Shown here: positions 1 through 24,027 of the stretch, in pieces
Layout of the letters: every line of letters begins with the position of its first letter
Numbering within the stretch: the first letter of the stretch is position 1
Virus record (IMG/VR): IMGVR_UViG_3300049827_000022
Location: 1 to 25,799 of that record
Source of the DNA: a virus
Reading direction: 5' to 3' (one strand)
DNA length: 25,799 bases
Translations under genes and position numbers: made by a program
The notes under the pieces: model-generated
Told to the model about the DNA's origin: nothing
What the model saw: the letters and a program-made list of their open reading frames with translations, nothing else
The model's database searches: none

Positions 1-11
1 CACAAATGTAA

Positions 12-1202
12 TTATAAATTTACTTTAGTTCCTATCATTCCAAGATAATTTATAGGCACTTGCGGATTAGTATTGAACCCAGTTTTGAGTGCAAAGTTAA
101 ATTTAAAGCGTTTTGTAAGCGCAAAATCAAACGATGCACCAGTTAAAAAGCCCACATCGTCCGAAATAATAAATAGCTTTTGATTGGTTAGGTATCCAGT
201 TGATGATCCCGAAACATAAACATCTGGCGATATAGTCAAACGCTTATTAACTTTAATTGGTATTGTATAAAAGAGCAATATGTTATTAGATAAATTAAGC
301 CCTATATCTGCACCTGCAACTGAGAAAGTATAGTTAGCACCTGATACCCCATATTTGCCCATTGGCAGGATATATGCAGCCGTGCCAAAGCCTAGCACAC
401 TTCCGCCTAAATAAACCCCTGTAAGGCCATAGTTTGAAATTGATTGTAGTTTGCCTTCTACAAAGTTCATTTTAGTGTATCGTCCTGAGAGAGCAAACTG
501 GTCAAAGGAACTCCATATCATAGAGCTAACACCCCACGAGCTATTGCCCATTAAACTAGACTGACTAAAACCAACGGAAGCAATGATCTGTAAAACATCA
601 GTAGAAGGGGCAACCGTAAAATCAGATGAATAAATAATCGGATTAACTTTAGCTTGGCTCTTAGACGAAGATTTTTTTTCAGATTTGCTTTCACTTTTCG
701 ATTCGCTCTTCTCTTCACTTTTAGATTCAGCCTTACTTTCTGATGCTTCGGATTTGGTTTCACTTTTAGATTCGGCTTGTGGTGTGGATGAAGATGAACT
801 TGAGGAAGGCGCAGGAGCTGGCGGAGGCGGTGCTACCGATACCGATGCAGCAACCGCAGAGCTTGCCGCTTGGCTTGTGGCCTGACTGGTTGCTTGACTT
901 GTGGCTTGTGCAACCGCTTGTTGAACGGCATTCGTCACGGTCTGTTGAACTGCAACCTGAGCTTGAGGACACGGAAAGTTTACCGTTAAATTGTTTATCC
1001 ACGCTTGTAGCTCTCCCGATGTAATATCGTTTGCGCTTACCGTTCGAAACCTTCCACGATAAATGATTGTTGTTCTGCCGTTAGCAATTGGAACGGTTAC
1101 AACCGTGACTTGCCCAGAGCAGGGATCAATAAAGGTTTGAGTTAATACTTGAGCCGAAGCCGTAACGGTTACAAATGTAAACAATACGGCAAGCCATTTC
1201 AT
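12..1202 (-). CDS. Outer-membrane beta-barrel protein with periplasmic linker
   Basis: A 396-residue protein. The signal peptide is MKWLAVLFTFVTVTASA with Q18 next. A small N-terminal domain has two Cys (C28, C78) and the pattern QTFIDPCSGQVTVVTVPI, which could be disulfide-linked. Then comes an Ala/Gln/Ser repeat (QATSQATSQATSQAA, about 99-113), a Pro/Ser stretch, and a Ser/Glu/Lys linker (143-185) that could span the periplasm. Residues 200-396 consist of amphipathic strands, alternating aromatic and Gly residues (GLTGVYLGGSVLGFGTAAYI, YTFSVAGADIGLNL), typical of an 8-10-stranded barrel. It overlaps the CsgG-like stop by 4 nt. The role is unknown. Confidence 0.65.
   Translation of the reverse strand: MKWLAVLFTFVTVTASAQVLTQTFIDPCSGQVTVVTVPIANGRTTIIYRGRFRTVSANDITSGELQAWINNLTVNFPCPQAQVAVQQTVTNAVQQAVAQATSQATSQATSQAASSAVAASVSVAPPPPAPAPSSSSSSSTPQAESKSETKSEASESKAESKSEEKSESKSESKSEKKSSSKSQAKVNPIIYSSDFTVAPSTDVLQIIASVGFSQSSLMGNSSWGVSSMIWSSFDQFALSGRYTKMNFVEGKLQSISNYGLTGVYLGGSVLGFGTAAYILPMGKYGVSGANYTFSVAGADIGLNLSNNILLFYTIPIKVNKRLTISPDVYVSGSSTGYLTNQKLFIISDDVGFLTGASFDFALTKRFKFNFALKTGFNTNPQVPINYLGMIGTKVNL
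648..776 (-). repeat. Ser/Glu/Lys low-complexity coding repeat
   Basis: This stretch encodes SKSE-type repeats (residues about 143-185 of the barrel protein), with alternating Ser, Lys and Glu. The DNA has imperfect repeats of AGTGAAAGCAAATC-like units. Such regions can change length by slippage. Confidence 0.6.
867..908 (-). repeat. Tandem 12-nt repeat coding QATS
   Basis: Three imperfect 12-nt units in the same gene encode QATS-QATS-QATS followed by QAAS. They form the start of the low-complexity linker. Confidence 0.6.
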
Positions 1203-1906
1203 TTGAATAGCTTTTTCTTAATCATTCGAACAATGATTTTAGCAGATGCGTTTTCTAATGCTTTCTTTGTGGTGCTTCCGATTGTTGATTGATTGAACTT
1301 AATCTCTGCAAAGTTACCATCGTTCATTAGCGTTGCCTCTCTTGTTGTCTTTGCTTCGCCTAAACCTGAGCCTGTAAAGTATTCGCCTGTTTCAGCGTTT
1401 ACAAACTTAACCTGTAATCCCAATCTTGTTACTACGGTTTGCTTCACTCCATCCTTAAAGCTGATTGATTCATCCTCAGATACACTAAAGTCATAAACTT
1501 CAATGTACACAAAGTATTGTGCAAGCTTTATCTTGCCACGACCATCTAGTTTGTTTTCTGTAATACCCGACTGACTAGCTTGAAACTGCTTGACCATTCT
1601 ATTCTTAATCTCTGCCTTATCTTCGGTAAACGTAAAACGATTTGTTTCTTCTAGGAACTCGACAACGATGTTAGTTACACCAAGCCCTACACGCTTATCT
1701 TTTAGCTCTGGATAAGATGCGTAAACCTCTTCGCTTATTCCAAGCGAAAGTAATTGAATAGGAATTTTTGGCCCATCGTAATCCATTAGAGAATCGATGT
1801 TAATCTTTTTCTCAAATGATGCCGTATAGCTTTCAGTCTTTGTCGTAGCTATCTGACCAAAGGATGAAAACGACAATAACGATAAACAAATAATCCATTT
1901 TACCAT
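1199..1906 (-). CDS. CsgG-like curli-type outer-membrane pore protein
   Basis: A 235-residue protein with a signal peptide (cleavage near FSSFG|Q; no lipobox Cys at the right place, unlike E. coli CsgG). The mature part follows the CsgG order: VGLGVTNIVVEFLEETNRFT (like the LVTALKDSRWF region), a charged helix KAEIKNRMVKQFQASQSG, then KLAQYFVYIEVYDFSVSE (like the IMVEGSIIGYES strand), and RLGLQVKFVNAETGEYFTGS (like IAVNLRVVNVSTGEI). A C-terminal helix ends in KKKLFK. CsgG forms a nonameric outer-membrane channel for curli subunits. This one may be a phage-encoded secretion pore or lysis factor. Coupled on both sides (7- and 4-nt overlaps). Confidence 0.7.
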   Translation of the reverse strand: MVKWIICLSLLSFSSFGQIATTKTESYTASFEKKINIDSLMDYDGPKIPIQLLSLGISEEVYASYPELKDKRVGLGVTNIVVEFLEETNRFTFTEDKAEIKNRMVKQFQASQSGITENKLDGRGKIKLAQYFVYIEVYDFSVSEDESISFKDGVKQTVVTRLGLQVKFVNAETGEYFTGSGLGEAKTTREATLMNDGNFAEIKFNQSTIGSTTKKALENASAKIIVRMIKKKLFK

Positions 1907-2202
1907 TGCGGTGCTTTCTCTAGTTCTTCTTTAGCCGTAGGAGCTTTTGGCTTTGCTGGTTTCTCTACCACACGCTCAACAATCTTAGTGCCTCCGCCTG
2001 ATGCTTGCTTTTGTTGCTGAGTGTTGTTAGTTGTAATGTTGATAACTGGAGCAGGAGCTGACACCGCTGCTGGTGCTGGGCTTGCTTCTTCTTCGCCTGT
2101 TAATTGTTTTGTAACAAATCCGCCTACACCTAGTGCGATTGTAGATGCTAATCCGATAAGGATGCTCTTCAATGAGCCTCCGCCTTCTTGTTCTTCTGCC
2201 AT
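1900..2202 (-). CDS. Small one-TM protein with Pro-rich C-terminal tail
   Basis: A 100-residue protein. A charged N-terminus (MAEEQEGGGS) is followed by one Gly-rich hydrophobic helix (residues about 11-30, LKSILIGLASTIALGVGGFV), then an Ala/Pro linker, an Asn/Gln stretch (INITTNNTQQQKQASGGG) and a Lys/Pro/Glu tail (KIVERVVEKPAKPKAPTAKE) ending in W. The topology suggests anchoring in the inner membrane with the tail in the periplasm, somewhat like a TonB-like or linker protein. A pinholin-like function is also possible. It overlaps the CsgG-like start by 7 nt, so the two are co-translated. Confidence 0.65.
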   Translation of the reverse strand: MAEEQEGGGSLKSILIGLASTIALGVGGFVTKQLTGEEEASPAPAAVSAPAPVINITTNNTQQQKQASGGGTKIVERVVEKPAKPKAPTAKEELEKAPQW

Positions 2203-2203
2203 T

Positions 2204-2560
2204 TTATTTGATGTTTATGGGTAATTTAGATGCGTTTCCGCTTATGTCTAGTAAAATTAAATCGTAAATGCCTGCTTCAGTTTTATCAAAACTGACTACA
2301 AGGTTGGATTCTTCAGCAGTTGCCGTAAATCCTTGCGCCTTTATAGGCTCAGATTGCCCTAGTTTAGACAATTGAAGCGAGTATTTAGCACCTATTGTTG
2401 TCTTTGCTTTAACGTGTGCCGTGTTATTTACTACCGAATAACCGATAATTGCATTGACCTGAGGGTTTTCTCCTAGTCCGATAGGCTCAATAACCACGAT
2501 TTGTGGCTCAGTACATGATGCAAACACCAGCAAAACCGTGAAGATTATTAAATTTCTCAT
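2204..2560 (-). CDS. Small lipoprotein
   Basis: A 118-residue protein with a lipoprotein signal peptide, MRNLIIFTVLLVFASC; C16 would be the lipidated residue (lipobox F-A-S-C). The mature part is beta-rich (NTAHVKAKTTIGAKYSLQL… GIYDLILLDISGNASKLP) and resembles an Ig-like fold. It is likely attached to the outer membrane. It overlaps the secreted protein gene by 4 nt and the next gene starts 1 nt after its stop, so it belongs to the same module. It could be a partner of the CsgG-like protein or an outer-membrane spanin component. Confidence 0.65.
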   Translation of the reverse strand: MRNLIIFTVLLVFASCTEPQIVVIEPIGLGENPQVNAIIGYSVVNNTAHVKAKTTIGAKYSLQLSKLGQSEPIKAQGFTATAEESNLVVSFDKTEAGIYDLILLDISGNASKLPINIK

Positions 2561-4323
2561 TGAAATAAATTAATTCCTAGCAATCTAATTGATTCAGTAT
2601 TAAGATTTATGCCTAATTGGTAGCCAGTTTTACTACTGGCATCCATAACTGGACTCACTTTAATAAACGTATTTAGGTCGCTTCCGTTATTAATTGAGCT
2701 AAACCTTAATTTGAAAGGTGTTAAAACCCCAGTAATAGGATTCTTAACATCCTTGTCAATCGATCCGAATTTAATCTTACCTTCTTTGTTATTCACAAAC
2801 GTGTACCAAGTGTTCGGTAATTCGTTTGTAAGGCTCTCAAATTTCAATTTGGTAGCATCGTATTCAAACTCAAATTGAAGCGCAGAAACGGCAAGCGATT
2901 TAGTATCAAGCGCAACAGGAATCTCTATCGTATTGCTAGTAATGGTTTGGCTTTTAATGCTTACGTTAATAGATTGAATCGGTTGCGTTGTATTGATTAG
3001 CAAGTTAGCTTGAGGCGAGCCTAGATTCTTGCGTAAAGAAGGAACTGCGTTAGTTGCAATCGTGCTTCCTATAATTACCTGCGATGAATGCGATCGGTTT
3101 ATATCACCTTCTAAAACGTATTTAAGTTTCAACGGTAAATTCTTTCCTATCTCTGAGGTTTTGAAATACACTACATTGCTTGCATCCTTCCAATTTGATG
3201 CGCTTAATCCGTTAAATGTTGAATCAGTAAACGTTGCAACTGGGATGTACATATCCGTTCCTGAACTATAATTAGCAGGTAAGCTAACAATTGCATCTAC
3301 TCCTACCGCTTGCGAGAATATCCTGACCACATCACCACCATCAAACCTCTTGTTTTTGTTAATATCAGATGCGTAATAGCCTGCACCAGTTATAATTGAT
3401 TGCCCTTTAAATGTGCCATCTAAATTCTGGGTATTAAACTCAGCTTGTGCGGTTGTAAAATCTGAAACCGTAACTGCTGAAGCGTGTAAATCTAGGTAGC
3501 TATCTGCGTTTAAACTATTATAAACTTTGTAAACCGTGTTAGGTTTTAGCTGGGTTTGGTCAATTGGAATTGTTCCATTACCTAAAGCATCCACTTTGTA
3601 CGTTGTTTTTCTTAACGTATCCTCAAACACCACACGATTGAGCGTAAGCCCATCAATGTTTGTGTTATTGTCTATCGTAGCCGTCACATATTTGGATGCA
3701 GTAGGATCTAAAAGAATAACGTTAGTCAATGGAGTTGTCATCTCGGTAGCACCTGATGAGCCGTTTTGATTAAACGAAGCCCCGAAGTTCATCAAGATTG
3801 GATTCCACGCAAAGCCTTGAGCAGTAGTCTTTAATCTAAAGCGCATCACTACAAGCCTATCTTTGCCTAAACCACCTTGAGCAATTGCCCAGTTAAGATA
3901 ATAGCGTAGGATTGTTTTACTGCCTCCTTGAGTAAAATTGTATTGCGCCCAATTGTAGTTAGTATTGCCGTTGCTTGTATTATTTTGTGCAGTTTTATTA
4001 AACGAATAACCGGGATATAAGAAATGTGATTGACTTATTTGTGAGCCTGCTGGAATGATACCACCATTGCCCATTGTGCCTGTATGATTTATCGATACAA
4101 AATCAAATGCCGTGTTTTGAAATTCAAAATCAAAATATAAAGAGCGTGATGATGTATTACTATTGCCATCTGCAAATACAACCACATCAAACAAATCGCC
4201 CTTGTTGATTACGTTGCCATCTAGATTTACATTCGTTGAATCGTTCTGAAAGTATAGCTTAATTGTTTGGCTATTAGCTGAAAGGCTAATTAATACTAAG
4301 GCAAAGGCGAGAAGATTTTTCAA
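2557..4323 (-). CDS. Secreted protein with cohesin/dockerin-like features
   Basis: A 588-residue protein with a signal peptide (MKNLLAFALVLISLSANSQ), cleaved probably before or near Q19. The N-terminal region 40-200 and the C-terminal region 465-588 both look like cohesin-type beta-sandwiches; the C-terminal one has IEIPVALDTKSLAVSALQFE, EYDATKLKFESLT and the closing GVLTPFKLRFS. In between is a dockerin-type calcium loop, SDINKNKRFDGGDVVRI: D320, N322, N324, D328 and D331 are at the expected 1, 3, 5, 9 and 12 spacing. A second, poorer loop is GDINRSHSSQV (406-416). It could be an exported adhesin or extracellular component. No T9SS C-terminal domain is evident. Coupled by 4-nt overlaps on both sides. 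Confidence 0.6.
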   Translation of the reverse strand: MKNLLAFALVLISLSANSQTIKLYFQNDSTNVNLDGNVINKGDLFDVVVFADGNSNTSSRSLYFDFEFQNTAFDFVSINHTGTMGNGGIIPAGSQISQSHFLYPGYSFNKTAQNNTSNGNTNYNWAQYNFTQGGSKTILRYYLNWAIAQGGLGKDRLVVMRFRLKTTAQGFAWNPILMNFGASFNQNGSSGATEMTTPLTNVILLDPTASKYVTATIDNNTNIDGLTLNRVVFEDTLRKTTYKVDALGNGTIPIDQTQLKPNTVYKVYNSLNADSYLDLHASAVTVSDFTTAQAEFNTQNLDGTFKGQSIITGAGYYASDINKNKRFDGGDVVRIFSQAVGVDAIVSLPANYSSGTDMYIPVATFTDSTFNGLSASNWKDASNVVYFKTSEIGKNLPLKLKYVLEGDINRSHSSQVIIGSTIATNAVPSLRKNLGSPQANLLINTTQPIQSINVSIKSQTITSNTIEIPVALDTKSLAVSALQFEFEYDATKLKFESLTNELPNTWYTFVNNKEGKIKFGSIDKDVKNPITGVLTPFKLRFSSINNGSDLNTFIKVSPVMDASSKTGYQLGINLNTESIRLLGINLFQ

Positions 4324-4835
4324 AGTAATTTATTGATTAAGGAGTTACACGCTTTTTTTATAGCACTTGAAAGATTTTGTTGATTAAAGTTTCCACCTTC
4401 ATCAACTAGCAAGGTAGACATCGAAACCTCATCGGCTTTTTCTTCAACGATTGCTTTGCTTATTACTTTTCCTTTGTGATATAACGTGCCTCTTAATCTT
4501 ACAATAACGGATTCAGTTGCTCCGTGAAAGATAGATAGATTAGCCTCACGCTTATAAACATCCAAATAAAGGATTTCTACCTTAAGCACCTTATCCGATC
4601 CATCTGCTAAATCGTAATCCTTTACGACAAGATATTCTTCTAGTATGTTTTTAACTCCAAACGCTAAATTGCGATTACCTGCTAATGCTCCTATTTGTAC
4701 ACGATTCTCAACTGGTGCAACCGTGATAGGCTCAGTCGGGAAAAAGTGCTTATAAATGAAATAAGTTTGTACCGTAAAACTCATGCCAATGATAAGAGAA
4801 ACAATCTTGGCGGTAATTGCAAATGCGTTGTTCAT
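4320..4835 (-). CDS. Membrane-anchored CsgG-like protein
   Basis: A 171-residue protein with an N-terminal membrane segment (residues about 5-31, with SLIIGMSFTVQTYFIYKHFF) that lacks a cleavage site, so it is probably anchored in the inner membrane with a periplasmic domain. That domain shares landmarks with the CsgG-like protein at 1199-1906. FGVKNILEEYL compares with LGVTNIVVEFLEE, VIVRLRGTLYHKGKVISKAI compares with VVTRLGLQVKFVNAETGEYF, and LLVDEGGNFNQQNLSSAIKK compares with the LMNDGNF…KKA stretch there. It lacks the long central part and is smaller than CsgG, so it may be a partner or reduced paralogue. Both ends overlap neighbouring genes by 4 nt. Confidence 0.55.
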   Translation of the reverse strand: MNNAFAITAKIVSLIIGMSFTVQTYFIYKHFFPTEPITVAPVENRVQIGALAGNRNLAFGVKNILEEYLVVKDYDLADGSDKVLKVEILYLDVYKREANLSIFHGATESVIVRLRGTLYHKGKVISKAIVEEKADEVSMSTLLVDEGGNFNQQNLSSAIKKACNSLINKLL

Positions 4836-4960
4836 CGTCCCTGACCTTTATAACGTTTTGGTTTCTGTTCGTATTTGGAAAAGGCTCTTTTAGCCTTACC
4901 TTTTTTCTTTGTTCCGAATGAAATTTTTTGGTTGCCATTACCTGCTTTTGCCTTTGCCAT
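4832..4960 (-). CDS. Small basic protein (42 aa)
   Basis: A 42-residue very basic ORF starting MAKAKAGNGNQKISFGTKKK and ending KPKRYKGQGR; about one third of its residues are Lys or Arg. Its ATG overlaps the endolysin stop (TAATG) and its stop overlaps the next ATG (ATGA), so it is coupled on both sides and fills the gap exactly. A nucleic-acid-binding, ribosome-binding or virion DNA-associated role is possible. No family recognised. The overlapping frame with start at 4938 gives a less credible product and lacks this coupling. Confidence 0.65.
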   Translation of the reverse strand: MAKAKAGNGNQKISFGTKKKGKAKRAFSKYEQKPKRYKGQGR

Positions 4961-5808
4961 TATGCTAATAAATTATAGTATTCTTTAAAATGCTTTTGTC
5001 TGTCGGCAAGTCCAATTGTACCGCCATTTACTCGCTTAGTTACTGCCGTTACTACATCCATTGATGCACCTCTGTCGCAGATTGCCCATAGGTTATTACG
5101 CTTAAAGAAAAACGCTGCCGATGCTAAAGGGTATTTAGTTGCTACTAAATCAGGATTTTTAAGTATGTCTTCGCCTACGGTAGCATCAAACGCTCTATAA
5201 TTGTCCTTACCTGTGAGCTGGATATAGCCTCTTCCACGGAACGACCAACCCTCTCCTGATGCTTCATTGCCATTACCCATTCTTGATGAGTAAACACGGT
5301 TGGCAATCTTCTCTGGCTTGCGCTCGTATTGCATTGCCAAGTTTACATTTGTAAAATACTTGCGGAAAATACCTAACAATCCTTTTGCTGAATAGTTTAA
5401 GTTTTCACTTACTGCTCTAAAGCCTCCTGATTCGTGTCCGCATTGAGCCAAGAAGTGAGCTAGGCGCAAAGATGTAGTAATTCCAAACCTCGCTGCGGTG
5501 TCAGGTATTTGATTTATTACCGCTTGCGGAATATGTCCTACCAATCTATCTAATTTAAATCCGCTTGTGGGCACGATAGTTGGCTCTGGTTGAACGATAA
5601 CTTGCGGAGCGGGTACTTGTGTCACTTCAGCAAATAACTTGCTCCACGTTGCATCGCCTACAATGCCATCAGGTGTTAAGCCGTGAGCTGATTGCCAGCC
5701 CTTAACTGCGGCCTCTGTCTTTGGGCCAAATTTACCTATCGGATCGACTCCAAGTTTTACTTGAAGTTTTACGACATCATCCCCTGTTGATCCTACTCTT
5801 AAAAGCAT
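4960..5808 (-). CDS. Endolysin: PG-binding domain plus GH19-like lysozyme
   Basis: A 282-residue murein hydrolase. Residues 1-60 form a PG_binding_1 domain (LQVKLGVDPIGKFGPKTEAA… DGIVGDATWSKLF). A Pro/Val-rich linker follows (about 62-80). Residues 90-282 are a GH19 chitinase-like lysozyme, with probable catalytic E126 in LAHFLAQCGHESGGFRAVSE, then GWSFRGRGYIQLTGKDNY and RVNGGTIGL. Cleavage of the peptidoglycan glycan strand is expected. There is no signal peptide, so release through the holin is likely. The TAA stop shares one base with the ATG of the next gene. Confidence 0.9.
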   Translation of the reverse strand: MLLRVGSTGDDVVKLQVKLGVDPIGKFGPKTEAAVKGWQSAHGLTPDGIVGDATWSKLFAEVTQVPAPQVIVQPEPTIVPTSGFKLDRLVGHIPQAVINQIPDTAARFGITTSLRLAHFLAQCGHESGGFRAVSENLNYSAKGLLGIFRKYFTNVNLAMQYERKPEKIANRVYSSRMGNGNEASGEGWSFRGRGYIQLTGKDNYRAFDATVGEDILKNPDLVATKYPLASAAFFFKRNNLWAICDRGASMDVVTAVTKRVNGGTIGLADRQKHFKEYYNLLA

Positions 5809-5810
5809 AT

Positions 5811-6416
5811 CTATTTTATTTTGTGATAATAGCCAAAGCCGTACAATGGTTGCCCATTTAAATCGACTTGAGCCTTGACATTAAGCAATGCGTCCTTCTT
5901 TGTCTTGTAAATGATTCCTGCTTCAATACCTCTGATTCCTATTGAGTTGCTCGTATTAATTCCACCACCCACAAACAAAGCTCGTGATGGCGGTAAATAG
6001 CGTGTGATAGTTTTTGTTTCTTTAATCTCAGGTATCTGATAGTTCTCACGAGTTCGCCTGCTTGTTAATTTATTATTTTGAATTGAATCTAAAACTGCAA
6101 TGTATCCGTAATTGCCTACTCGTATTGTGTCGGAATAAATAACCTTATTCATATACAACTGAAGCAAAGCTAGGTATTGCCTTTTTAAATTATCGTAATT
6201 TGTGTCTGGTAGCATCTCAGGTTTTGATGCTACCTCGACAACAATCTCTTTTAATATAGGCACTTTCTTTACGATAATTGAATCGTATCTTTTCCAAGTT
6301 GTATCGTGTACAACTAGCGTGTCGTTTGGCTTTGCCTCTCCTGCTTGCTTATGCTTTGTGTAAGCATAGAAGATAGCAACCATACAACAAATGAAAAGGG
6401 CTATATTAACCTTCAT
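5811..6416 (-). CDS. Membrane-anchored periplasmic protein, spanin candidate
   Basis: A 201-residue protein with an N-terminal membrane segment (residues about 4-20, NIALFICCMVAIFYAYT). Then comes a periplasmic region with coiled-coil character (LKRQYLALLQLYMNKVIYSD) and a C-terminal Gly-rich beta region of about 55 residues (ALFVGGGINTSNSIGIRGIE… GYYHKIK). The latter might pack on or insert into the outer membrane. This fits a unimolecular spanin that joins inner and outer membranes in gram-negative lysis, but there is no lipobox. It lies between holin candidate (11-nt overlap) and endolysin (2-nt gap). DUF6808-like proteins of Bacteroidota phages look similar. Confidence 0.5.
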   Translation of the reverse strand: MKVNIALFICCMVAIFYAYTKHKQAGEAKPNDTLVVHDTTWKRYDSIIVKKVPILKEIVVEVASKPEMLPDTNYDNLKRQYLALLQLYMNKVIYSDTIRVGNYGYIAVLDSIQNNKLTSRRTRENYQIPEIKETKTITRYLPPSRALFVGGGINTSNSIGIRGIEAGIIYKTKKDALLNVKAQVDLNGQPLYGFGYYHKIK

Positions 6417-6693
6417 CTTCAGGCAATGGAGCTAGTCCACCTTGCAAGTTTTTTTCACGCTCTGCATCCGTTTTACGGTTAGCAACTTTCTCATAGCTTG
6501 CAATGCCAAAGCACCCAAATGTTAAGCCTGCAAATACCTCTAAGATAATCGGCTCGATAACAAATTGTTGTTGCTCTAATCCAGTCACAACATCAGCGAT
6601 GCCGTAAATAAATAGAACACCGAACGATGCAAATCCTAAAATTGCTTTCTCGTTGATTTCATTGTCATCCTTGAAAATGTCTAAAAATGCCAT
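6406..6693 (-). CDS. Holin candidate (two TM segments)
   Basis: A 95-residue protein with two hydrophobic segments, about residues 17-38 (AILGFASFGVLFIYGIADVV) and 46-66 (IEPIILEVFAGLTFGCFGIA), joined by a short loop. The C-terminus is charged (RKTDAEREKNLQ) and an acidic N-terminus is present. The topology matches class II holins, with both ends in the cytoplasm. It precedes a spanin candidate and an endolysin that lacks a signal peptide and therefore needs a holin. The identification is by topology and position only. Confidence 0.65.
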   Translation of the reverse strand: MAFLDIFKDDNEINEKAILGFASFGVLFIYGIADVVTGLEQQQFVIEPIILEVFAGLTFGCFGIASYEKVANRKTDAEREKNLQGGLAPLPEDEG

Positions 6694-6695
6694 AG

Positions 6696-6965
6696 TTATT
6701 CTTTTTTAAGTTTATGTAAAATTTGTGCCTTTGCAAAAATTGTGATTGCCTCACTATCCTTTACAAAGTTTTTGAATGTTTCTTGATCGGATGAATCTAA
6801 GTCTAGCACTTCGCCCTTGTTTAAAGCAACTGCCCAATCCCAGAATTTAAGCGCATCGCCTTTAGTTTGTTGAACTAATGTTTGAGCTACTAGCTTTCCA
6901 GCGTTTGTGTTTGGAACTTCTTTACCATCTAGGTCAAGTAAATTGCAGTTTAAATCGATTTTCAT
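6696..6965 (-). CDS. Small conserved phage protein (89 aa)
   Basis: An 89-residue soluble protein with MKIDLNCNLLDLDGKEVPNT at its start and a charged helical rest (FKNFVKDSEAITIFAKAQIL). No membrane segment. It is the first gene of the run leading through the lysis genes, with a 2-nt gap to the holin candidate. Function unknown; the position suggests a virion assembly or lysis-timing accessory, without direct evidence. Confidence 0.6.
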   Translation of the reverse strand: MKIDLNCNLLDLDGKEVPNTNAGKLVAQTLVQQTKGDALKFWDWAVALNKGEVLDLDSSDQETFKNFVKDSEAITIFAKAQILHKLKKE

Positions 6966-6990
6966 TTGTTTTTTGTTTTTGTTTTTTGTG
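6966..6990 (-). promoter_or_regulatory. A-rich translation leader without Shine-Dalgarno
   Basis: Minus strand CAAAAAACAAAAACAAAAAACAA before ATG at 6965. No AGGAGG-like sequence. Such A-rich leaders are typical of Bacteroidota genes; similar ones precede the starts at 7336, 14823 and 15419. Confidence 0.5.
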
Positions 6991-7009
6991 ATATAAAATT
7001 AGTAAAAAA

Positions 7010-7336
7010 TTATGATTGCCACGGTAGGGGATAAGCCACAATCGGAGGATTCAAAAAGTTCTCTATCTGTGCATCTAAATTCGCCTCGATTGCCTCGCAG
7101 TCTAGCCCAGCTTCTAGCCATGACTCGACCATTTCTTTCGTAACCTCATCGTAAGGAGTGAAACTCGCTTCGTGTGGTGCATCGACTGCTAAAGCTCCGT
7201 AAGTATTAGCCGTAAAATAAATAACATCCTCTTCATATTGCTTTTCAGCTCTCCAATGAATTACGCTAATTACTTTGTCCATTCCGTTAAGGGAAGGGAT
7301 AGAGTCTAGTTGAGATATTACCCAATTAAATGCCAT
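7010..7336 (-). CDS. Small conserved phage protein after the fibre (DUF7936-like)
   Basis: A 108-residue soluble protein, MAFNWVISQLDSIPSLNGMD at its start, followed by KVISVIHWRAEKQYEEDVIY, an acidic helical half, and a final NPPIVAYPLPWQS. The start pattern and the closing PLPW resemble small proteins often found beside tail fibres in marine and freshwater phages; I recall the family as DUF7936, with unknown function. The 38-nt AT-rich gap upstream has an A-rich leader (AAACAAACAAATAAT). A fibre assembly or chaperone role is a guess from position. Confidence 0.6.
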   Translation of the reverse strand: MAFNWVISQLDSIPSLNGMDKVISVIHWRAEKQYEEDVIYFTANTYGALAVDAPHEASFTPYDEVTKEMVESWLEAGLDCEAIEANLDAQIENFLNPPIVAYPLPWQS

Positions 7337-7374
7337 ATTATTTGTTTGTTTATTATTTCTTTATTTTTAATTTT

Positions 7375-10182
7375 TTATGCGGTTTGCCTTGTTTTAAATA
7401 CTTGAAATGCATATGTACCTGTACTTCCTGTATTATTTGTGAATCTATAACCACCTACACCAGGACTATGTGTCATTGCTCCAGTGCTATTAACAACAAA
7501 ACCTAAACTAAGGGTTACACCACCTCCACATATAAATACCTGAACAGCACCCGTATTAGTATTATTTACTATAATCATTCCAGACATTGATGGAAAATCA
7601 ACAAAAGCACCATTTGCTAGTGATATAAATGAACCGCTTGAATCTAATGTAGGATTTCCAACGGATACATTACTTTTAAATGTATTGCTAGTTAAAACTC
7701 CCCCCAAATCTAAAGACATAATAGGAGCATCAGAAGGGTTTATAATAGCAAAATTATCGCTTGAGTCTACCCCAATATGCCATCTATTAACATCATTTCT
7801 TTGCATTGTAAAATGTTTCCCAAACCCGCCTGATAATAAATTAGCAGTAAACATACCTCCGCCACCTTTGCTAAAAAATTGTCCCACTGAAATTGTAGTA
7901 TAACCAGCAGTAGAACCAATTTGTAAAGTATTATTAGTTAACAAATTTAATGGATTGCTATTACCGTCATTTGTGTAAAATTTTAATCCTCTTCCAGCCG
8001 TACCTACAATTTCTCCTTCACTTGAATTTGAAGATAAACGTAGTCCAGCACCAATTGATACACTACTTGAAAACGTAGCTGAGCCTGTAGAGGTTAAAAA
8101 TAAAGCGGTTACAGGTGTTGTTCCTGTTCCATTTGCACTAACTAAAAAATTAAGTTGACCTCCATTATTACCTGCAGCATTAGGATTAGAAGCAGATATT
8201 GCAGCTACTCTTTCATTACCTCCAAATGAATTATTTACTCTAAAATCTATTAAAGCTACATTTGAAGCACTTGCTCCTGTATTATTATAAATTGATATTG
8301 CAGCCGTAGATGTGCCAAAACCTGAGTTAAATCCTAAAGTTCCAGTAAGTGTGCCCCCCGCTAAAGGTAGGTAAGAGGATAACTGAGAGGTTAAGGCAAG
8401 CGTTCCGGTAGAAGAAGGCAAAGTAAACGATTGACCAGCTCCATTAGAAAAGCCAGCTTGTGCAATGATTGTACTTGTCGCTTGTATAGTACCTATAACC
8501 GTAACGCTACCACTTGCATACAAAGCAGAATTCCCCGTTGCAATTATAGATACTGCGTGATAACTTCCATTTGTATGGGTAATTCTTAAAGCATTACTTG
8601 CACTTGAATTACTTAAATCTATTGTTTGAGCATTAACGTAGGAGCTAAAATTGCCAAAAGTTCCGTTTAATCCTCCGGTTAAAGTTCCACCAGTCAAAGG
8701 TAAATAAGCCGTAGAATCTACTGAGCCATTAGCTTTTAAGAATTGAGCAGATGTACCACCCGTACGAATGAAAGATGAAGCAGTTAAAGAGGAATTAAAA
8801 GTACCTGCACCTGCATCGGTTAAAGTAATAACCGAAGCTCCAGTTTTTTGTATTGTAAAAGGTGCAGAGGTTGCAGCAGTATCGTTATTAATTAAAATAC
8901 CAAAACCGCTACCGCTAGAGTTTAAAGTTAAAGCTCTGCCTGATGAATGAGTAATTCTAATTGCATCGCCAGTACCTGAGCCAGTAACCCCCAATGCTAT
9001 GCCACTTCCTGACATTGCAAAAGTAGCAGTTGTTCCGACAATTGCACCAGTCATTGTTCCACCTGCTAATGGTAGATAATTAGCTCCGTTTGCAGGTGTA
9101 TAACCTAAAACGGTTGCAATACTTTTGTTCTTCCATAAATCGGTAGAAGATTCGTAAAATAAACCATCGTTATTTGTAAGCGAAGAAATGGCTACATCGT
9201 GAATTTCATCTAGCTCGTAACCGTTTTGAATCTTAACCTCAATTTGTCCTAATGTCGGATGCGCTCTAGTTACAACACCAATATAAACTAAATGCGCTGG
9301 GGCTAATTGCTTAGTAGTTGTATAAGTTCCTGCCGTTGTAGAAGAAAGATATAATTGCGCCCCTTCGGTTAATCCGCTTGTGTCTAAGCCACCTAAATCG
9401 CCCACACAAACGACATAGCCGTTAGCGTTATTAGATATATTAGCTTGAACCATTCCGAACGTTTGAGCCGAAGTAGCATCGCCAGTCGCAATAGCTTTTG
9501 AAACGGTTGGCTTATTGCCAGTCGCTCCGCTAATATAAACGATTGTGCCTTTTGTTAAAGTAGCCCCTGTTGTATTACGAACTTCACGAACTAAAGTGCC
9601 AGCTTGTCCAGCAACTGGAAACGTAATTAATGAGCCATCGCCTGCAATGTATTGAGTTGTATCGCCAGTAGGGTCATCAAACTTTGCGTTTAATGCATTT
9701 TGTAAATCTGTTTGAGAGCTTAAAGTTCCAGTTATCGCACCCCATACCGCAGTAGAATCTGCAATCTCAACGTAAACCGAGCCTGACCAACGATAGATTT
9801 TATTATTATCTAATGTGATGTATATCTTACCTGTTTCGCCTGTCGCTGGTAACGCTGCAAAATTAGCCACCTCAACTACATCATCAACGTATGAAGGCAA
9901 TTCTGAAGCGGGAACTTTACCACCTACTAAATTAGCCTTTAAAGCTAAAGCGTTATTAAGGTCAGTTTGGTTAGATAACGTACCTGTTATTTGCCCCCAA
10001 GAAACACCGAAATTGCTTGTTAAAGAATTGATATTAATTTCGACAACGGTAGGAGTTACATTTAAAACTATATCCTCTCTATTGTCGATTATATTGACAT
10101 CAATTATCTCATCGTTCGGTTGAGCCGTGATTTCAATTGTATTGGTAGTTTCGGTAACTATGATGTCTATAATATCTTCCAT
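7375..10182 (-). CDS. Tail fibre / receptor-binding protein
   Basis: A 935-residue, Ser/Thr/Gly/Ala/Asn-rich protein, the largest in the window. Repeats visible in the protein are WGQITGTLSNQTDLNNAL (62-79) and WGAITGTLSSQTDLQNAL (147-164), and three copies of YLPL(A/T)GGT(M/L)TG starting near residues 369, 493 and 604. These are typical trimeric fibre shaft motifs. The N-terminal 55 residues probably attach to the baseplate. The C-terminal 200 residues (…GGYRFTNNTGSTGTYAFQVF) would be the tip; no S74 intramolecular chaperone motif is visible, so a separate chaperone may be needed. It lies between a BppU-like adaptor and a small conserved gene. Confidence 0.85.
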   Translation of the reverse strand: MEDIIDIIVTETTNTIEITAQPNDEIIDVNIIDNREDIVLNVTPTVVEININSLTSNFGVSWGQITGTLSNQTDLNNALALKANLVGGKVPASELPSYVDDVVEVANFAALPATGETGKIYITLDNNKIYRWSGSVYVEIADSTAVWGAITGTLSSQTDLQNALNAKFDDPTGDTTQYIAGDGSLITFPVAGQAGTLVREVRNTTGATLTKGTIVYISGATGNKPTVSKAIATGDATSAQTFGMVQANISNNANGYVVCVGDLGGLDTSGLTEGAQLYLSSTTAGTYTTTKQLAPAHLVYIGVVTRAHPTLGQIEVKIQNGYELDEIHDVAISSLTNNDGLFYESSTDLWKNKSIATVLGYTPANGANYLPLAGGTMTGAIVGTTATFAMSGSGIALGVTGSGTGDAIRITHSSGRALTLNSSGSGFGILINNDTAATSAPFTIQKTGASVITLTDAGAGTFNSSLTASSFIRTGGTSAQFLKANGSVDSTAYLPLTGGTLTGGLNGTFGNFSSYVNAQTIDLSNSSASNALRITHTNGSYHAVSIIATGNSALYASGSVTVIGTIQATSTIIAQAGFSNGAGQSFTLPSSTGTLALTSQLSSYLPLAGGTLTGTLGFNSGFGTSTAAISIYNNTGASASNVALIDFRVNNSFGGNERVAAISASNPNAAGNNGGQLNFLVSANGTGTTPVTALFLTSTGSATFSSSVSIGAGLRLSSNSSEGEIVGTAGRGLKFYTNDGNSNPLNLLTNNTLQIGSTAGYTTISVGQFFSKGGGGMFTANLLSGGFGKHFTMQRNDVNRWHIGVDSSDNFAIINPSDAPIMSLDLGGVLTSNTFKSNVSVGNPTLDSSGSFISLANGAFVDFPSMSGMIIVNNTNTGAVQVFICGGGVTLSLGFVVNSTGAMTHSPGVGGYRFTNNTGSTGTYAFQVFKTRQTA

Positions 10183-10183
10183 T

Positions 10184-10522
10184 CTAGCGTGTTACTTCTG
10201 GTGTTACATTAAATCCTCCTTTTACGTATGTCTTTACTTCGCCACTTGACAAAGTAAATTGAATGTCGTAAACGTAATTAAAAACCTCAATGTTAATAAT
10301 TTGCGCATTGATTTTAAATAATCCGCTTGCTGCGTTAGTGATTGTGATGCCTGCCGATGAAGCGGATGTCAAAGAAAGAGATGCAGTCGTGTCTGAGTAT
10401 TGTTTACGAAGTTGCATTCTGATTGTTGCCCCAGTTAAGTTGATAGCCGTGCCGTTTTTCTTTACTTCGAAAGCTACTTCACTAAATGTATCGCCTTTTG
10501 TATGCGTGAAATTAAGAGCCAT
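10184..10522 (-). CDS. BppU-like baseplate/fibre adaptor
   Basis: A 112-residue beta-sandwich-like protein. It has the pattern of the BppU N-terminal domain: an initial strand and loop (FTHTKGDTFSEVAFEVKKNG), then the hallmark INLTGATIRMQLRKQYSDTT (about residues 27-46) and a final strand (GEVKTYVKGGFNV). In other phages such domains link the baseplate to receptor-binding proteins. The tail fibre gene starts 1 nt after its stop, which matches an adaptor for the fibre. Confidence 0.6.
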   Translation of the reverse strand: MALNFTHTKGDTFSEVAFEVKKNGTAINLTGATIRMQLRKQYSDTTASLSLTSASSAGITITNAASGLFKINAQIINIEVFNYVYDIQFTLSSGEVKTYVKGGFNVTPEVTR

Positions 10523-22818: not shown

Positions 22819-24027
22819 TTAGTACACGAAATACTGCCCTTTGTTGGGATTAGACAAGTGATAGAACACGTTGTAACGTATGGCATCGATTGCGTGATTG
22901 TAATTATCGATAACCAATCCAGACTTTTTATCTGAGTAGGTGTAATTGTTAAGTTCCTTTGCAATGTTTTGTGAGTTAGGTTCTAAAACTATTTCAAAAT
23001 CCTGCATTAATGCTAGGCCAGCCGTTATACTTCCTGCTCCTTTCTCGGTTGCTACGATATTACAACGCTGACTTGATAGCTCTGCGATTAGTCTAGGCTC
23101 TGCGCTATCGGCTACAATTAACGAGCCTCCGCATACTTGCTTGTTTATTACCGCAATTTCTGAGGTCGTTAGCTTTGGTTTGTAAAGATGCTCCTTAACA
23201 TAAATCTTGCGTTTGTTCTTATCAATGGCCACCTCGACTAGCGTTGTCGGATCGATAGAGAATCCAAAGTCTTGCCCAAATGATGTTTGCAAATTGTCAG
23301 GGTTAAAATTACCAAAGCTCCAATTAGTAAACACAACACCTTCGGCTTTGTCTAGCCAACCCCCAAGAATTTGGTGCTTATATTTCTTTGGATTGTATTG
23401 CTTTATCCTTTCAATTTCATCTAGAAATGATTGTTCTAGGTGCTCAATGTTATCCTCGAAGGTGGTATGAATATAAGTAACATTATTCTTCACACCATTA
23501 AAGCCTTCATCTATTCCAGCCGATTCAAAGAAACGCTGGTAAATCCAATGCTCTTTTGTTGCAGGGTTTAAAATTAGAATCACTCTATTCTGAACACCCT
23601 TCTGTCTAATAGATAAGTTTATCTTATCAAATGTTGCCTCATCTGTTAGCTCCTCAGCTTCATCTAGTATCCAGGTTGTAACACCTTGCAATGATTTAAG
23701 GTTTGCAGTTTGATCGCCTGATGAAGTTCTAATCCCTTTGAAGATAATTTCAGAGCCTGATGTTTTATTTATTATTTCCGACTTTGTTATTTCAAAGTGA
23801 TGGCCTGCTTCTAATAGCTCTATTTTCTCTTGAAACTCTGGAATGATAGATAGGTGTGCAGATGTCATTGTCTGCCTTGTAAATAGAATCTTATGCCCTT
23901 TCTCAAATGATAAGAGGCTGGCAAATGTGCCAACCCCAAAAGATTTAGATGAACCACGACCTCCTGTAATAATAAAGAATCGTGTTGTATTTCCTAAAGC
24001 CTGATATTTTTTGTTTAAAATTATCAC
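22819..24027 (-). CDS. terL: Terminase large subunit (Terminase_3/PBSX type)
   Basis: The ATP-driven DNA packaging motor and headful/cos nuclease, 402 residues, typical for the family. The Walker A motif is TGGRGSSKS (residues 21-29) and Walker B is ILDEAEE (120-126). A coupling motif ILNPATKEHW lies at 152-161. The RNase H-like nuclease domain shows its three expected acidic residues at D253 (GQDFGFSIDP), D307 (VADSAEP) and D381 (NYNHAIDAIRY). Both domains look intact. The start overlaps the terS stop by 4 nt. A 32-nt gap containing an AACGTTTAT element separates it from the next gene. Confidence 0.95.
   Translation of the reverse strand: MIILNKKYQALGNTTRFFIITGGRGSSKSFGVGTFASLLSFEKGHKILFTRQTMTSAHLSIIPEFQEKIELLEAGHHFEITKSEIINKTSGSEIIFKGIRTSSGDQTANLKSLQGVTTWILDEAEELTDEATFDKINLSIRQKGVQNRVILILNPATKEHWIYQRFFESAGIDEGFNGVKNNVTYIHTTFEDNIEHLEQSFLDEIERIKQYNPKKYKHQILGGWLDKAEGVVFTNWSFGNFNPDNLQTSFGQDFGFSIDPTTLVEVAIDKNKRKIYVKEHLYKPKLTTSEIAVINKQVCGGSLIVADSAEPRLIAELSSQRCNIVATEKGAGSITAGLALMQDFEIVLEPNSQNIAKELNNYTYSDKKSGLVIDNYNHAIDAIRYNVFYHLSNPNKGQYFVY

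Follow-up and report, generated by a model that had tools for sequence, protein, structure and literature searches.

The virus record IMGVR_UViG_3300049827_000022, which we analysed over its whole length of 25,799 bases (the window), carries almost all of its long open reading frames (ORFs) on the minus strand. Its minus-strand run leads from the terminase large subunit (22819–24027) via structural genes to seven coupled genes, A to G, which end at base 12 and are the subject of this work. The order at the end of the run is a tail-fibre-like gene, a holin-like gene (HOL), RZ, the endolysin gene (LYS) and then A–G, the structural, tail-fibre-like and holin-like labels having been assigned by eye; all of the genes of this record located below lie on the minus strand. 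From HOL through G neighbouring genes overlap or stand at most 2 bp apart (the junctions LYS→A→B→C→D→E→F→G measure −1, −4, −4, −4, +1, −7 and −4 bp), and 11 bases separate G from the record end. An initial annotation of this DNA had reported seven coupled genes behind the endolysin, and its coordinates and count are correct.

Conservation and distribution of the gene block

Relatives of F are encoded on at least 589 viral contig stretches and relatives of B on 403, numbers in which near-identical contigs may be included repeatedly. The loci compared below came from searches taking the best 80 hits each, in which near relatives are over-represented; 163 such loci (numbered with an L) were reduced through shared identical 400-mers to 93 non-redundant ones, 25 of which lack at least one of B, C, E, F and G. 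The remaining 68 hold all five genes, on one strand in every case and in the order B-C-E-F-G in 64, the exceptions being the L052 type, the cultured Flavobacterium phage immuto, L084 and L162. Conserved linkage in related phages, on which the initial annotation had staked its case, is borne out by these counts. Gene A (4832–4960), which directly follows the endolysin and encodes a basic protein of 42 amino acids, lies below the size cut-off of the ORF list; its family is present in 60 of the 93 loci and, in the gene orders recorded, is placed between B and the endolysin. Across the 68 loci the median pairwise identity of F (0.74) and of the endolysin (0.71) is the highest among nine families compared, while C (0.41), G (0.44) and D (0.37) are more variable. 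A further gene family, which this window does not hold, was seen in 13 of 16 loci examined and lies between E and F in 12 of them (for example L018 7396–7974 and L067 6947–7504). Its members have two hydrophobic segments, followed in several by EF-hand-like DxDGDG repeats and a CxxC pair, and the one member scanned against Pfam gave no match.

The phages that carry the block differ in their packaging genes. The closest relatives of the terminase of this window are up to 64% identical and belong to Nonlabens phages, with Riemerella phages next. Among 17 whole module-bearing records, hand-picked for varied size and arrangement, F was found in all 17 and a relative of this terminase in a single one, so the module is common to phages without visible kinship. 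A terminase-like match to phrog_2, which we take to be a large-terminase family, occurs in nine of the 17 records, several of these matches being weak, and in the single record with both it falls on the terminase of this window's type. F proteins 91% identical to the one studied here occur in contigs of 66–68 kb. These comparisons suggest a block common to phages with different packaging genes, a distribution most simply explained by transfer.

When F was compared by tblastn with 50,697 deposited phage records it matched only four records of immuto; C likewise matched immuto records only, and B and G matched none. The B, E and G proteins of immuto were found by profile, and the same profile examination of the immuto stretches gave no D and no A. 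A scan of 84,980 species genomes with two peptide patterns returned two relatives, both in metagenome-assembled genomes. Profile searches of Bacteroidota genomes, in which at most seven (F) and five (G) first-look candidates were scored per genome, found F in one of 395 and G in one of 296, both on the same 254-kb contig (L084) of a Bacteroidetes metagenome-assembled genome. This contig holds the module together with terminase-family and endolysin matches and is probably the genome of a large phage that was assigned to a species during binning. F and G are thus nearly absent from the genomes searched and the one contig that has them is phage-like, and we therefore regard the module as phage-borne within the reach of these searches.

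Export signals and predicted structures

The initial annotation had assigned an export, lipoprotein or membrane signal to six of the seven proteins, and the relatives agree. The signal-peptide and lipobox counts given here derive from simple pattern tests rather than SignalP, applied to the distinct proteins of the 93 non-redundant loci, second copies included. A signal-peptide site of the xAQ type is present in 86 of 87 relatives of C, in all 74 of F and in 68 of 72 of G. D (2204–2560) is a lipoprotein of 118 amino acids, as annotated, with a lipobox in 66 of 67 relatives and Cys16 invariant in 15 of 15 aligned sequences. E (1900–2202; 100 amino acids) has the single membrane segment near its N-terminus that had been described: an N-terminal hydrophobic segment is found in 75 of 75 relatives, none with a lipobox and six also with the xAQ pattern. 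The Pro/Gln-rich tail of E ends in Trp, as does the C-terminus of all 75 relatives, mostly after Pro-Lys or Pro-Gln, and this terminal peptide is a possible docking peptide. Singly, B, D, E, F and G gave only chance-level matches against Pfam and PHROGs.

F (1199–1906), an exported protein of 235 amino acids and the most conserved of the module, was modelled with AlphaFold2 from a 30-row alignment (mean predicted local distance difference test, pLDDT, 62; predicted TM-score, pTM, 0.53). When this model was compared with the PDB using Foldseek the 20 best rows were all CsgG or curli-complex entries (best E 4.7e-7, TM-scores 0.37–0.46), and by VIA-align it scored Z 10.4 against CsgG (170 residues, root-mean-square deviation 4.1), tied with Cj1090c at 10.5 and followed by PelC (9.1), FlgT (8.6) and LptE (8.1). 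On the Foldseek and VIA-align scores the model thus places F in the CsgG/Cj1090c/PelC/FlgT/LptE fold group, with CsgG as its best representative, and the CsgG fold that had been set beforehand as the test for this gene is supported. A sequence link to CsgG is suggestive: the F profile aligned over nearly its full length with an alignment of 18 CsgG sequences in hhalign (probability 42, E 2.6e-4), and the comparison pairs meant as controls reached E 0.0016–0.0093 over short stretches, although these controls are imperfect, two of them matching the signal-peptide region or the C-terminal extension of long Bacteroidota CsgG proteins. The same stretch was paired with the single E. coli CsgG at a non-significant E of 0.09, and the only match below E 0.001 in a fold search of BFVD is a CsgG-annotated protein of an uncultured phage. 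A PDB sequence search with the profiles of F, B and C returned no meaningful match. The Pfam CsgG family (PF03783) gave no match to F, none to the 22 aligned members and none in the 17 module-bearing records, the same profile matching in the E. coli used for comparison; among 118 Bacteroidota genomes it is present in 39. Bacteroidota CsgG itself comes in a long form of about 460 amino acids and a short form of about 240.

CsgG is a lipoprotein whose barrel is built by two hairpins. The lipobox is found in none of the 74 relatives of F, and the hhalign alignment places a 10-residue gap in the first hairpin relative to CsgG. Within this hairpin an acidic motif is present in 74 of 74 relatives, and its charge fraction is 0.30 in F versus 0.19 in E. 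coli CsgG, the stretches compared having been chosen by hand. A scan for strand amphipathicity did not tell F and CsgG apart, and the region of the second hairpin is of low confidence in the model. Because of the lacking lipobox, the hairpin gap and the charged, acidic first hairpin, F is more likely a periplasmic ring or adaptor than a membrane pore. Of the 'CsgG-like pore' in the initial annotation, then, the fold is supported and the pore is not.

A similar division applies to B (4320–4835; 171 amino acids), which had been called a membrane-anchored CsgG-like protein. It has an N-terminal membrane segment, followed by a domain remotely like F, and its relatives have a hydrophobic N-terminus in 82 of 83 cases, with an xAQ-type site in 18 of 83. 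B is membrane-anchored in this window, and in some relatives, judged by eye, it carries an ordinary signal peptide instead. The profiles of B and F align with probability 68 and E 4.9e-5, and the F profile matches the immuto B at E 0.0011, whereas B aligned directly with CsgG by hhalign gave no significant match. The anchor therefore holds, and the CsgG likeness of B comes down to a weak link through F.

C (2557–4323), a secreted protein of 588 amino acids with a TTG start, was correctly annotated as a cohesin/dockerin-type protein. Its cohesin domain (residues 464–523, near the C-terminus) matches Pfam Cohesin PF00963 at E 8.1e-6 and 26.5 bits (cut-off 24.1), and Cohesin is matched in 16 of 20 aligned members, counting E values up to 0.1. 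A dockerin-type loop, DINKNKRFDGGD, starts at residue 320 and the motif GDINRSHSS at residue 406; by pattern test the full loop and a GDxNxSHSS-type motif each occur in 82 of 87 relatives, and Pfam Dockerin_1 reached E values of only 0.068 and 0.024 on proteins of the family. The host type IX secretion system (T9SS) takes proteins with a type A sorting domain to the cell surface. Such a domain (TIGR04183) was matched in three of nine C-family proteins scanned (L080, 4e-11; L084, 2e-7; L053, 4.8e-6), and Por_Secre_tail in three of 20 aligned members. A second C-family gene is present in nine of the 68 loci, and three loci were tested for its domains in a scan of ten proteins that included those of immuto: the second gene has Lectin_C in L053 (3.4e-7), GEVED in L078 (2.3e-12), and Lectin_C (1.3e-5) with sub-threshold Cohesin and Dockerin_1 in L052. 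In immuto, gp15 combines Cohesin (6.4e-9) with Por_Secre_tail (5.4e-9) and gp13 has Lectin_C (1.9e-15). No enzyme domain was seen in the C proteins scanned.

G (12–1202; 396 amino acids) consists of a signal peptide, an N-domain in which Cys28 and Cys78 are invariant across 22 alignment rows, a low-complexity linker and a C-terminal barrel at residues 189–395. Its AlphaFold2 model (mean pLDDT 65) has 12 long strands across the barrel region, with the linker at very low confidence. Foldseek returned FapF as the top matches (E 2.3e-7), and VIA gave NalP Z 24.0, KdgM Z 19.9 and FapF Z 19.1. From the model it is safe to assign G as a 12-strand outer-membrane barrel, as had been annotated, and both a FapF-like and an autotransporter-like architecture are compatible with it. 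The G profile also weakly matches the extra C-terminal part of long Bacteroidota CsgG, which may itself be a barrel. Additional G-family proteins of about 260–300 amino acids are encoded near G in L046 (8713), L161 (11930) and L084 (13504).

Candidate functions of the module

The reading that we prefer, at a probability of roughly 0.45, is that the genes form a late, phage-encoded trans-envelope module that exports C and keeps it at the surface of infected Bacteroidota cells. In such a model F, perhaps together with B, would form a periplasmic ring or adaptor, G would serve as outer-membrane conduit or anchor, and E would act as inner-membrane tether whose Trp-ended C-terminal peptide docks on a partner, while D would anchor part of the complex in a membrane. 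C would leave the cell via the host T9SS in lineages with a sorting domain and through G, with the help of F, in lineages like that of this window, and would then assemble outside through cohesin–dockerin contacts. The weakest step is the use of the assembly: a late coating or cross-linking of the surface might reduce how many virions re-adsorb to debris and dying cells, or might hold cells together. The initial annotation had left three options side by side, an outer-membrane stage of lysis, secretion of C through a CsgG-like pore, or surface display or superinfection exclusion; the T9SS, lectin and GEVED domains among the relatives favour surface display of C, and a dedicated lysis stage, less favoured, is kept as a rival.

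Several observations weigh against surface display. The models of F and G are of modest confidence (pLDDT 62 and 65), and calling a dockerin depends mostly on counted motifs beside a weak Pfam Dockerin_1 match. The C protein of this window matches no T9SS sorting domain (TIGR04183 or PF18962), most of its relatives are also without one (seven of 87 match a loose pattern), and no lectin partner was seen in this virus record; with neither sorting domain nor lectin partner, any exit route of this C is putative. B, D, E, F and G are tied to C by gene neighbourhood only. Late expression is read from gene position, promoter patterns being no more frequent than chance: a Bacteroidota-type pattern gave one match against 1.48 expected, and sigma-70 and terminator scans of positions 1–10500 gave counts below the shuffle means. 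Finally, lysis genes are close to the module in most phages. Of the 17 whole records, 16 gave an endolysin match (phrog_181), which in 15 of them is no more than 5 kb from F, on either side and in both orientations, and in immuto an annotated glucosaminidase gene lies 5.7 kb downstream of the module.

Because of this proximity we keep as the main rival an accessory outer-membrane stage of lysis, a doubtful but serious alternative in which, after holin and endolysin have acted, E/B, F, D and G would bridge and break the outer membrane and C would be an exported crosslinker. In this window the module genes overlap the run of the endolysin LYS (4960–5808; PG_binding_1 and Glyco_hydro_19, phrog_181 at E 1.8e-71), which is preceded by RZ (5811–6416; 201 amino acids) and HOL (6406–6693; 95 amino acids with hydrophobic segments, holin-like by eye). 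HOL-RZ-LYS-A-B-C-D-E-F-G is also the commonest arrangement (32 of the 68 loci, with 12 more lacking HOL). In 46 of 68 loci the endolysin is encoded upstream of the module, on the same strand and no more than 1 kb away, and in 15 it was not found within the locus; since the whole records place it on both sides of F and in either relative orientation, its link to the module survives rearrangement. However, in the L052 record the endolysin match is 20 kb from the module, and in immuto the module sits among DNA-metabolism genes, about 27 kb from its end to the relatives of HOL and endolysin; this separation in immuto is why display of C is favoured. A large secreted protein whose relatives have T9SS, lectin or GEVED domains would be an odd lysis factor. 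In addition, RZ is a separate spanin candidate: it has an N-terminal membrane segment and a conserved Gly-rich C-terminus and is possibly spanin-like by eye, its family is present in 14 of the 17 records, and a survey states that Bacteroidetes phages use unimolecular spanins exclusively (PMC12596118). The lipobox pattern occurs in only one of 61 RZ proteins and the Gly-rich C-terminus resembles, by eye, four beta strands, through which RZ, as an unusual kind of spanin, might reach the outer membrane. HOL was itself considered as a component of the module, as it lies between E and F in some loci, and was dropped since its relative in immuto directly adjoins the endolysin. The link between module and endolysin is thus strong but not obligatory, and a late envelope function fits this better than a necessary lysis factor.

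If surface-directed proteins were instead made early, they could mask receptors or exclude superinfecting phages apart from any late programme, and the position of the immuto module among DNA-metabolism genes, which are possibly early, would agree with this. We consider such a role unlikely, as an endolysin is usually a late gene and the module follows it closely on the same strand in the 46 loci mentioned above. Even less probable is a channel function proper, in which F would sit in the outer membrane as CsgG does and, as a depolarising or gated pore, set the time of lysis, a role that has been put forward for the methylophage Melnitz (PMC9004378). The CsgG fold of the model and the failure of the amphipathicity scan to separate F from CsgG speak for a channel; the lipobox absent from all 74 relatives, the gapped and more charged first hairpin with its invariant acidic motif and the absence of PF03783 from all 17 records speak against it, and the fold is also that of PelC and LptE. 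Nor did Pfam or PHROGs return a CsgF-, CsgA- or CsgB-like partner among the ten proteins of the window that were scanned, although remote relatives could escape such a scan and the record stops 11 bases beyond G; a complete curli system was considered and dropped. Least credible of all is that some of C–G sit on the virion as decoration or adsorption fibres, since tailed phages assemble in the cytoplasm whereas the signal peptides of C, F and G and the lipobox of D, like the T9SS sorting domains in relatives of C, direct these proteins out of it, even though a long gene that looks tail-fibre-like by eye precedes the run and lectin-type domains occur in phage adsorption proteins.

A module that takes up 4.9 kb and stays together in phages as different as these should matter in the infection of aquatic Bacteroidota. 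F is as conserved as the endolysin and present on so many viral stretches, yet among the deposited phages only the four immuto records matched it by tblastn. Both immuto and its host, Flavobacterium sp. LMO8, have been isolated, which makes the question directly testable.

Comparison with known systems

Among the open-licence papers that literature searches returned we recognised none on this module, and the accessible text of a paper on LMO8 phages (PMC7077304) does not mention immuto. The features of individual proteins recall four known systems. Like the scaffolds of cellulosomes, C proteins combine a cohesin domain with a dockerin-type calcium loop and sometimes a lectin domain; they differ in being phage-borne, in having no enzyme domain among the proteins scanned and in matching the Pfam dockerin only weakly, and cohesin–dockerin binding is putative here. 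FapF, the secretion channel of the Pseudomonas functional amyloid, consists of an N-terminal domain, a linker and a 12-strand outer-membrane barrel. G shares this plan and has FapF as its top Foldseek matches, whereas the identity is only 5–9%, NalP and KdgM score as high or higher by VIA, and no other Fap-like protein was seen in the Pfam and PHROGs scans of the window's proteins.

Cryophage has been described as encoding secreted proteins that carry type A sorting domains and would leave through the T9SS of the host; its cargo consists of three variable genes for an endoglucanase, a glycoside hydrolase and a PA14 protein (PMC7468147). In the phages studied here the cargo instead lies within a conserved module, and the sorting domain occurs in some lineages only.

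A further likeness is to the curli (type VIII) genes of pelagiphages and Melnitz, in which a phage-encoded CsgG-type protein also belongs to a multigene export module found across phage families; as far as the available portions of these reports go, the genes are absent from the reported hosts, and roles in lysis timing or as surface fibres have been proposed (PMC7029224, PMC9599517, PMC9004378). Genes for csgG or csgGF are also known from temperate viruses of sediment (PMC9636769) and from reef phages (PMC7003362), reports whose accessible parts give gene-level annotation and describe no module of this kind. The phage curli sets hold CsgG with CsgF, and in pelagiphages also CsgA/B and FecR (PMC7029224, PMC9599517, PMC9004378), whereas the F protein of this module is not matched by Pfam CsgG and lacks a lipobox, two tests for which we do not file the module under CsgG/curli. 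The module further adds a barrel, a cohesin protein and a lipoprotein, and has Bacteroidota hosts. By analogy it may resemble the phage curli genes in what it does. We tentatively suggest, as a bolder claim than display of C itself, that it could be an undescribed, phage-exclusive system for secretion and surface assembly, in which a hairpin-less CsgG-type ring (F with B), the tether E, the FapF-like barrel G and the lipoprotein D would place the scaffold C on the dying cell, in some lineages together with a lectin or GEVED protein, as an independent counterpart of pelagiphage curli.

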